Shown here: positions 18,837 to 35,459 of the stretch, in pieces
Layout: each line of letters opens with the position of its first letter
How positions within the stretch are numbered: position 1 is the first letter of the stretch
Origin: Methanolobus sp.
GTDB taxonomy: Archaea; Halobacteriota; Methanosarcinia; Methanosarcinales; Methanosarcinaceae
NCBI GenBank assembly: GCA_029762595.1
Contig: JARVGJ010000001.1
Location: forward strand, 1 to 64,000
Length of the DNA stretch: 64,000 bases
Reading direction: 5' to 3'
The notes under the pieces: generated by a model
What the model was told of the DNA's origin: nothing
What the model saw: the letters and a program-made list of their open reading frames with translations, nothing else
Databases searched by the model: none
Program-made: the position numbers and the translations under genes

Positions 18837-19191
18837 AATTATTCCAACGATGAGTTTAGTTTATATGAATATAGTCAATGGGTTTTAGTATATCTGGTCA
18901 ATCAGTCATAGTACATCAAGGCAATTTATTCTTCCAACTATCGTCCCAATGATTAAAAACGTTTCTTATCAAACCACACCAAGCATTATTCCAAAAGTCA
19001 GACACAGTATACAATAAACAATATAAATATACATACAGAATAAATCCTACTGATATGTATTAGTCCAAAAATTACAAAGAGAATACATATTTTTTATGAA
19101 CATAAGCTAATCTATTCTTGTACATCATGAAAATAATGGATACATTACACTTAAGTGCATGGTCATGAAAAGCAGATATAGGTGATGACCG

Positions 19192-33080: not shown

Positions 33081-33554
33081 CTAGGATTGCTCTATCCCAC
33101 GCCTGACATCAACAGCCGGGCCGCGATCCATATGAATGGCTTCTTGTGGAGATAACAATAACTGACCGGTAGCAAGGACCACATCTGAGTTATCAACTAT
33201 TATAACTTCATCACCCGCTCTCAATCCAGGATCCATATCCAGCACGTGTTTGGCAAAAGCAGTCTTGCCTTTGGATACAAATGGTACTGCATCCTCACAG
33301 ATGACCACTCTTGATGCTGGCCTTTCAAGCATATCATGCAGGGCAATAGCACCATCGATACTGAGAGTTAGCATGCCGTCCTTTGCACGGACAGTTGCAA
33401 TATGCTTCCCATTGTACTGGATCTGCCTCACACGCCTGGTTTTAGATAACTGGAAAGTAACACCATCCGGAAAAAGAACTTCACCACAGCCTTTCCCGAA
33501 TTGGATATCAGCCATTACCCTTACTTTTATGAGATTTTTATCCGCATTGCTCAT
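33081..33554 (-). CDS. PUA-domain protein (archaeosine transglycosylase-like RNA-binding domain)
   Basis: Terminal PUA domain VPFVSKGKTAFAKHVLDMDPGLRAGDEVIIVDNSDVVLATGQLLLS. Confidence 0.85.
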   Translation of the reverse strand: MSNADKNLIKVRVMADIQFGKGCGEVLFPDGVTFQLSKTRRVRQIQYNGKHIATVRAKDGMLTLSIDGAIALHDMLERPASRVVICEDAVPFVSKGKTAFAKHVLDMDPGLRAGDEVIIVDNSDVVLATGQLLLSPQEAIHMDRGPAVDVRRGIEQS

Positions 33555-33690
33555 AGATGCTAAATAAAACAGAAGTCTTAAATTGATAGCGGTTACTCAG
33601 GAGATAGTTAAGCTCTTATTTTAGAGAGAACTACTATCCATATATAAAGAATGCCGAACAAATTTATATATAATAATGACTAATTATAAG

Positions 33691-33830
33691 TTGAGGAAAC
33701 GGGAAAACTGCTTGCAACCTTTATTCAAAGGTATAATGACTGTAACCAAGCAAAACCATTCATCCCCTCAAACATTTCCCGTTTCCTCGTTGCTCAAATA
33801 GAGGCAGCATTTCTTTCTTTGTTTTTTTTG
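33691..33830 (+). ncRNA. Candidate structured small RNA
   Basis: TATA-like aatttatata (33661-33670) about 26 nt upstream; 14-bp perfect stem GAGGAAACGGGAAA (33693-33706)/TTTCCCGTTTCCTC (33775-33788); nested TGCTTG/CAAGCA and ACCTTT-attc-AAAGGT; T-tract 33811-33829. Confidence 0.6.
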
Positions 33831-33992
33831 CATTTAACTATAATTTAACATTATTTAGTATATTAGATGAATGTGAAATCAACACATTGACAGCATTTTT
33901 AATAACGTTATGTTAGCTTGGTTTTAAGAATGTACTGTATACAGCAGGAAAATACATAGGCTGCAAAAAGAGAACGGGATCATGAAGATGAT

Positions 33993-35459
33993 CTAACCTT
34001 TTACAACCCCCATGGGAAGGACACGTGCAACTTTTGTTGCAATACCAAGATTGTGCACCACATCAACAACATCGCTACTGGATTTGTAAACTTCCGGGGC
34101 TTCCTCTGCTATAAGAGAAGGTTGAGTTGCCTTTACAATTATGCCCTGTGACTTTAATTTCTTCTGTATCTCTTCACCACGTAGCTCATGTTTTGCACTC
34201 TTGCGGCTCATCACCCTCCCTGCACCATGGCAGGCACTTCCGAATGTGAGCTCCATTGCTGCAGGGCTGCCTTTGAGAACATATGATGCAGTACCCATGC
34301 TTCCAGGGATGATCACGGGCTGCCCTATAGCACGATAATCTTCAGGAACCTCCGGATGTCCTGCAGGAAATGCCCTTGTTGCTCCTTTCCTGTGAACATA
34401 CACTTCCCTCTCATTCCCGTCTATGATATGTTTCTCAAGCTTTGCAACGTTGTGGGCAACATCATATACAAGATCAAGTCCAAGTTCACCATGTTCAGCC
34501 TGGAAGAAATTATCAAAGACCTCGCGAGCCCAGTGCATTATCACCTGCCTGTTGACCCAGGCATAGTTTGCCGCACAGACCATGGCCTTGAAGTAGTCCT
34601 GTGCCTCTTCAGACTCAGCAGGGGCGCATGCCAGCTGCTTATCAGGCAGATCTATCCTATATTTCTTGGATGCCTGGGAAAGCACCTGCAGATGATCTGT
34701 GCATATCTGATGACCAGCGCCACGGGAACCACAGTGTATCATAAAGGTAACCTGGCCTTCCTTAAGGCCAAAGACCCTTGCAGCATCCTCATCATACACC
34801 TTGTCCACATATTGTACCTCCAGGAAATGATTACCACTTCCCAGGGTTCCAATCTGGGGCCTGCCTCTTTTACGAGCCTTTACACTGACACTGGAAGGGT
34901 TGGCCCCAGGCATGGTCCCATTGCTCTCGCAGTGACTGATATCTGCCTCAACACCATAACCATTATCCACTGCCCAGCGTACACCATGAATAAAAATATC
35001 GTCCAGTTCTTTATCATTGACCCTGATACGGCTCTTTGAACCTACACCAGAAGGTATGGCATCAAACAATGCATCCAGTAGTTCGGCCAATTTTGGACGG
35101 ACATCAGCTTCGCTCAGATCGGAGCGTATCATGCGGACTCCGCAATTAATATCAAAACCAACACCACCCGGACTAATAACCCCTGTGTGTTTATCGAAGG
35201 CAGCAACTCCACCTATAGGAAAACCGTAGCCCAGATGTGCATCCGGCATAGCCATTGAATATTTCTGTATTCCTGGAAGCGAAGCTACGTTTGCAACCTG
35301 GTCAATGGTCTCGGCTTCAAGAATGTCAAGAAGGGGCTTAGATACGAATATCCTCCCGGGTACATTCATCCCGGGCTTGAAGTTACCGGGCACCTCCCAC
35401 GTATAATCATTCACCTTAGTAAGAATATCAGATACCAAACTTGCATTTTCATGTGACAT
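33993..35459 (-). CDS. rtcB: tRNA-splicing ligase RtcB
   Basis: GVGFDINCGVRMIRSDL, TLGSGNHFLEVQYV, MIHCGSRGAGHQ, SACHGAGRVMSRKSA; no intein. Confidence 0.97.
   Translation of the reverse strand: MSHENASLVSDILTKVNDYTWEVPGNFKPGMNVPGRIFVSKPLLDILEAETIDQVANVASLPGIQKYSMAMPDAHLGYGFPIGGVAAFDKHTGVISPGGVGFDINCGVRMIRSDLSEADVRPKLAELLDALFDAIPSGVGSKSRIRVNDKELDDIFIHGVRWAVDNGYGVEADISHCESNGTMPGANPSSVSVKARKRGRPQIGTLGSGNHFLEVQYVDKVYDEDAARVFGLKEGQVTFMIHCGSRGAGHQICTDHLQVLSQASKKYRIDLPDKQLACAPAESEEAQDYFKAMVCAANYAWVNRQVIMHWAREVFDNFFQAEHGELGLDLVYDVAHNVAKLEKHIIDGNEREVYVHRKGATRAFPAGHPEVPEDYRAIGQPVIIPGSMGTASYVLKGSPAAMELTFGSACHGAGRVMSRKSAKHELRGEEIQKKLKSQGIIVKATQPSLIAEEAPEVYKSSSDVVDVVHNLGIATKVARVLPMGVVKG

Follow-up and report, generated by a model that had tools for sequence, protein, structure and literature searches.

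Within the 64,000-nt stretch of Methanolobus DNA analysed here (the window), positions 33693-33829 of the plus strand are, as judged from sequence, a genuine and previously unannotated RNA gene, whose product we interpret, with a probability of roughly 0.75, as a trans-acting antisense small RNA (sRNA) controlling the translation of the mRNA for a winged-helix protein. Comparison among genomes supports the RNA gene itself, its structure, its complementarity to the leader of this mRNA and the co-occurrence of the two genes. The features of the locus are as follows:

33081-33554, minus strand: gene for a TGT_C2-PUA protein (Pfam PF14810, PF01472), the divergent neighbour
33654-33676, plus strand: promoter, with BRE CCGAAC (33654-33659) and TATA element TTTATATA (33663-33670), near-invariant in all Methanolobus homologues
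33693-33829, plus strand: predicted sRNA, from the fold and covariance model R1, with its start at about 33693 from the TATA spacing and its end within the T-rich run 33811-33829
33693-33706, plus strand: 5′ arm of the closing stem, GAGGAAACGGGAAA, from pairing and covariation in 40 homologues
33709-33714, plus strand: 5′ arm of the inner stem, TGCTTG, nearly invariant
33747-33752, plus strand: 3′ arm of the inner stem, CAAGCA, overlapping the target-pairing segment in part (columns 59-63 invariant in 40 sequences)
33751-33770, plus strand: target-pairing segment CAAAACCATTCATCCCCTCA, with near-invariant columns, mostly unpaired in the model and complementary to the leader sites of the winged-helix gene
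33775-33788, plus strand: 3′ arm of the closing stem, TTTCCCGTTTCCTC, on the same basis as the 5′ arm
33993-35459, minus strand: rtcB, the convergent neighbour (Pfam PF01139, E = 8e-183)

The sRNA gene and its promoter

The earlier note had described a free-standing structured sRNA in this gap, and direct reading of the sequence found its TATA-like promoter, perfect 14-bp stem, T-rich end and inner pairings (TGCTTG/CAAGCA and ACCTTT-attc-AAAGGT at 33717-33732) where it had placed them. The promoter follows the consensus CRAACAnATTTATATATAATAATGAC in the Methanolobus homologues, is still recognisable in other genera and keeps a fixed distance from the stem, whereas the opposite flank of the stem carries no conserved counterpart in the homologue alignment; the gene is presumably transcribed. 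This fixed-distance promoter, the covarying closing stem, the lack of an Rfam match and the lack of a following plus-strand gene together support the proposal of a free-standing sRNA. The earlier note had not recognised the RNA as RNase P, SRP RNA, H/ACA or a riboswitch, and none of 4227 Rfam families matches it at the gathering score, nor did relaxed thresholds give a credible weaker match; the target leaders and the related copies in the ANME-2 cluster likewise have no Rfam match. Since no plus-strand gene lies downstream and rtcB is convergent, the RNA does not sit, as a riboswitch would, in the leader of a gene that it controls.

The region 33685-33835 folds with − 35.9 kcal/mol (z = − 3.4), and none of 200 shuffled sequences folds as well. 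A protein-coding role was rejected, as the open reading frames across the sRNA are unconserved, with lengths and frames shifted by indels between homologues, and so was a small minus-strand frame starting at ATGAATGG, which indels break in other genera.

Distribution and synteny

Searches by blastn found the sequence at 86-93% identity in all 26 of the other same-genus genomes searched; because relatives conserve it, the feature is not due to chance. A covariance model of the kind suggested in the earlier note, R1, was built on a 40-sequence alignment and scores E = 4.8e-20 on 33693-33788. It detects exactly one copy in each of 66 of the 113 Methanosarcinaceae genomes, belonging to eight genera that include Methanolobus, Methanococcoides, Methanohalophilus, Methanomethylovorans, Methanosalsum and an ANME-3 MAG, and finds no copy in the other six genera of this set. 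The PUA-protein gene adjoins the sRNA at 66 of 70 loci and rtcB at 67 of 70, with contig ends accounting for two of the three loci that lack the rtcB neighbour. In the genomes taken to be Methanosarcina, the PUA-protein gene is flanked by neither rtcB nor the sRNA.

Structure and covariation

The two arms of the closing stem are 100% complementary and form the sole inverted repeat of at least 12 nt in the gap, and the arm has no second occurrence in the window at up to two mismatches. Only part of the 14-bp stem is shared with relatives: its outer 11 pairs are kept and covary (94.8% paired across 40 homologues), but the innermost 3 bp are absent elsewhere. Five pairs show changes on both sides (A-U to G-C and G-C to A-U), which are the compensatory changes that the earlier note had named as support, and the covariation score is 0.126, compared with 0.094 ± 0.006 for shuffles. 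The ACCTTT/AAAGGT hairpin turned out to be species-specific rather than shared, with relatives reading CTGTATTCAAAGGTATAG instead, and the small 3′ hairpin is only partially retained within Methanolobus. The inner stem provides weak evidence, because it is nearly invariant; in one Methanohalophilus lineage (L106) its TGCTTG arm is mostly lost, whereas CAAGCA is retained.

The near-invariant part of the RNA is not a hairpin but the 20-nt unpaired segment CAAAACCAUUCAUCCCCUCA (33751-33770). The longest invariant stretch, CCAUUCAUCCCCUCA, is preceded by CAAAA and is predicted to be single-stranded, and the predicted unpaired probability of the target-pairing core within the sRNA is 0.79-1.0. One Methanosalsum genome carries a second copy of the core (L070:2446-2516, minus strand), enclosed by another long inverted repeat, CTGATAACTTCAC/GTGAAGTTATCAG; R1 scores this copy at E = 0.044.

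Complementarity to the leader of the winged-helix gene

The leader of a gene for a winged-helix protein contains one or, in most species, two hairpins whose GAGG loops are exposed (UCUGAGGGGAUGAAUGG), and the conserved segment is complementary to them; that is, an accessible and conserved part of the sRNA faces an mRNA encoded at another locus. In the genome of the window, the two sites lie at G000:C10:18940-18955 and 18975-18990, starting at − 72 (site 1) and − 37 (site 2) from the start codon, and wherever another species has site 2, its start falls between − 34 and − 40. When 61 genomes were searched for the core (pattern CCATTCATCCCCTCAA, 0-1 mismatches), most Methanolobus genomes had, besides the sRNA gene itself, a second recurrent match, CCATTCATCCCCTCAG, which lies upstream of the same gene in the extracted leaders, where the mRNA carries the complement of the core. 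Allowing up to two mismatches in 16 leaves only four matching places in the genome of the window: the sRNA gene, both leader sites and a single further one. As a control, the equally conserved neighbouring sequence ACTGTAACCAAGCAA was searched in the same way and gave, apart from the sRNA gene, only a few scattered one-mismatch places and no recurrent second place; therefore, the leader match is not a by-product of searching with a conserved sequence.

The sRNA can pair with 97.5% of the 915 positions that make up 61 distinct leader sites (877 Watson–Crick, 15 G-U and 23 mismatches). The predicted sRNA–leader duplex has an energy of − 30.9 kcal/mol, compared with − 15.8 ± 2.7 kcal/mol for 1000 shuffled leaders, the best of which reached − 25.9 kcal/mol, and the best-site duplexes of other genera range from − 31 to − 38 kcal/mol. 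Site 1 reaches about 20 contiguous pairs in Methanococcoides, Methanosalsum and a probable Methanohalobium, and most Methanolobus have one mismatched position in it (G to A). The GAGG loop is mostly exposed in 24 folded leaders. An upstream open reading frame starting from the ATG of site 2 was rejected, as its frame relative to the start codon varies by species. In a probable Methanohalobium genome (L069, near 2533), a long A/T-flanked hairpin just 3′ of an open frame also has CTGAGGGGATGAATGG in its loop and is possibly a 3′-UTR sponge or an additional target.

The proposed target gene and its co-occurrence with the sRNA

The target protein has about 240-330 residues, with a short conserved N-terminus (MKVRLEIIDDDG), a Q/P-rich linker and a C-terminal winged helix that matches Penicillinase_R (PF03965, E = 6.6e-5); a PDB search returned no relatives, and NCBIfam gave no confident name. 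At the two loci read, it lies divergently beside an AAA gene, which we take to be proteasome-activating-nucleotidase-like (L065:3047-4282 in Methanolobus, L067:442-1689 in Methanococcoides). The gene occurs in 66 of the 113 family genomes, namely in the eight genera of the sRNA plus g23, and in 175 of 240 genomes of the class. Five genera lack both sRNA and target gene, and Methanosarcina appears to lack both partners. The co-occurrence by genus has a Fisher P of 0.003, but it could reflect a single shared loss. The two g23 genomes (G061 and G062, each about 75% complete) contain the target gene and both leader sites, with no sRNA found in either.

Proposed mechanism

In the proposed mechanism, the long stem would clamp the sRNA and display its unpaired segment, which would first touch the exposed GAGG loops on the leader hairpins of a single mRNA (one hairpin or, usually, two) and then invade the 3′ arm of each hairpin, so that 15-20 bp form at every site. 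Measured from the start codon, these duplexes would lie about 22-37 and 57-73 nt upstream, and the bound sRNA would most likely impede ribosome loading and repress the regulator-like protein. What happens in the cell, namely transcription, pairing and the direction of any effect, is our inference. Folding of the leaders gave no consistent change in accessibility of the Shine–Dalgarno (SD) sequence (mean 0.59 free and 0.57 bound), and a switch by SD sequestration upon site occupation was rejected on this ground. Because there is no such switch, the sign of the effect is not predicted by the folding, and repression, if any, would therefore be steric or act via decay. Given pairing, we lean toward repression, activation being less likely.

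The ANME-2 cluster and alternative explanations

A related module is found in the ANME-2 cluster (f3), where R1 detects it at E = 0.0009 and 0.004, and where the closing stem is exchanged as a whole, UGGAAUUCGGG/UCCGAAUUCCC replacing GAGGAAACGGG/CCCGUUUCCUC. The core CCATCCATCCCCTCA here faces the leader site TGAGGGGATGGATGG, a matched change in both partners, and swapping partners between ANME-2 and the others weakens the duplexes by about 3-4 kcal/mol relative to the cognate pairs. This module is not free-standing beside rtcB; it sits as if part of the leaders of two riboflavin genes (L146:6481-6581, L077 at about 2436-2520, L263 and L285). Between the end of one copy and a RibD_C-domain gene for a RibD-like reductase lie 24-30 nt (more in one or two genomes), and the other copy ends 37-40 nt before the lumazine synthase gene (ribH). 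We put forward, only tentatively, a two-part RNA control spanning at least two archaeal families, in which an anti-GAGGGG module, carried by the sRNA in Methanosarcinaceae and by the RibD-like and lumazine synthase leaders in ANME-2, would pair with the SD-like GAGG-loop hairpins of the regulator leader, the partners changing together. If true, this would amount in ANME-2 to direct mRNA-to-mRNA control joining flavin synthesis to the regulator.

The target-gene leaders of families f2 and f4 (L302-L316) also keep a GAGGGG-loop hairpin with wholly different arms. In 12 f4 genomes searched for a 20-nt complement of the leader, seven gave the leader itself alone, and one place with three mismatches was found besides; a covarying sRNA complementary to the f4 leader was thus rejected, as no long complement was found. 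Because no matching sRNA was found there (f4 being the family searched), these hairpins may have another partner. The invariant loop with variable arms, together with the missing f4 complement, would suit hairpins that primarily bind an RNA-binding protein, perhaps an autoregulatory one, which the sRNA displaces or by which it is displaced. We consider this explanation rather unlikely: alone, it leaves unexplained why the sRNA should carry a conserved complement of 15-20 nt, and it is compatible with sRNA–leader pairing rather than exclusive of it.

The motif common to the regulator's own leader, the sRNA gene and the ANME-2 ribH and RibD-like leaders might instead be an operator that the winged-helix protein binds on DNA, making these genes a single regulon rather than pairing partners; the winged helix (PF03965) fits such a role, and the coordinated ANME-2 change fits it too. 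However, the symmetric arms vary by lineage (CCAT/ATGG, ACATC/GATGT, GCCACA/TGTGGC) whereas the GAGGGG loop, which is asymmetric, stays constant, the opposite of what a dimer operator would show, and because GAGGGG is kept while the arms of the f2 and f4 hairpins differ, the signature is that of an RNA hairpin loop. The sites also lie well within transcribed regions, and in the sRNA copy the left arm is missing and the RNA stem covaries. An operator is thus improbable.

A still smaller chance attaches to a role tied to the neighbouring genes, the RNA ligase gene rtcB or the PUA-protein gene, with the RNA for instance as a substrate, a circular RNA or an RNP scaffold; strict synteny in eight genera and the long end-to-end stem would suit this, but the ANME-2 homologues adjoin riboflavin genes instead of rtcB, and the complementarity to the leader is left without a reason; the arrangement around the PUA-protein gene in the presumed Methanosarcina genomes weighs neither way. 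That the active product is a minus-strand sponge bearing GAGGGGAUGAAUGG, as the mRNA leader does, is barely credible, for although the stem is strand-symmetric, the conserved promoter lies on the plus strand at the right distance and the other flank is variable.

Comparison with known systems

To our knowledge, targets are known for few intergenic sRNAs of archaea. For the sRNA–leader pair preferred here, sequence comparison alone yields an sRNA, a candidate target, docking sites and predicted compensatory mutations, in cultured Methanolobus, Methanococcoides, Methanomethylovorans and Methanohalophilus as well as in uncultured methane oxidisers. The evolution of an archaeal sRNA–mRNA pair thereby becomes directly testable, including an sRNA becoming, or arising from, an mRNA leader.

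A dRNA-seq study of Methanolobus psychrophilus reported 195 intergenic sRNA start sites, and its main text does not mention rtcB (PMC5378194). Because the species belongs to the same genus, the present RNA may be among these 195 sRNAs. Archaeal H/ACA, C/D, SRP and RNase P RNAs are likewise structured noncoding RNAs, whereas the present RNA matches no Rfam family.

The closest parallels come from Methanosarcina mazei. The 191-nt sRNA162 masks a ribosome binding site (RBS) inside a bicistronic mRNA and is, like the present RNA, an intergenic methanoarchaeal sRNA with a single-stranded segment that pairs with the mRNA for a regulator (PMC3510493), although here the pairing is predicted and the target is regulator-like. 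Its structure differs, however, and searches of the presumed Methanosarcina genomes did not recover the present RNA. The structured sRNA154 and sRNA41 pair through unpaired regions with mRNAs, masking RBSs or stabilising transcripts, and have several targets in nitrogen or ACDS metabolism (PMC5867862). While sRNA154 is conserved within Methanosarcina (PMC5867862), the present family occurs in eight other genera. From its sequence, the present sRNA would act like these pairing sRNAs but, as far as tested, is none of them, and it is set apart by the usually two docking hairpins in one leader, by its wider distribution and by a module that switches between sRNA and leader. The sRNA and the leader it would pair with are candidates for one of the most widely conserved RNA–RNA control pairs in archaea.
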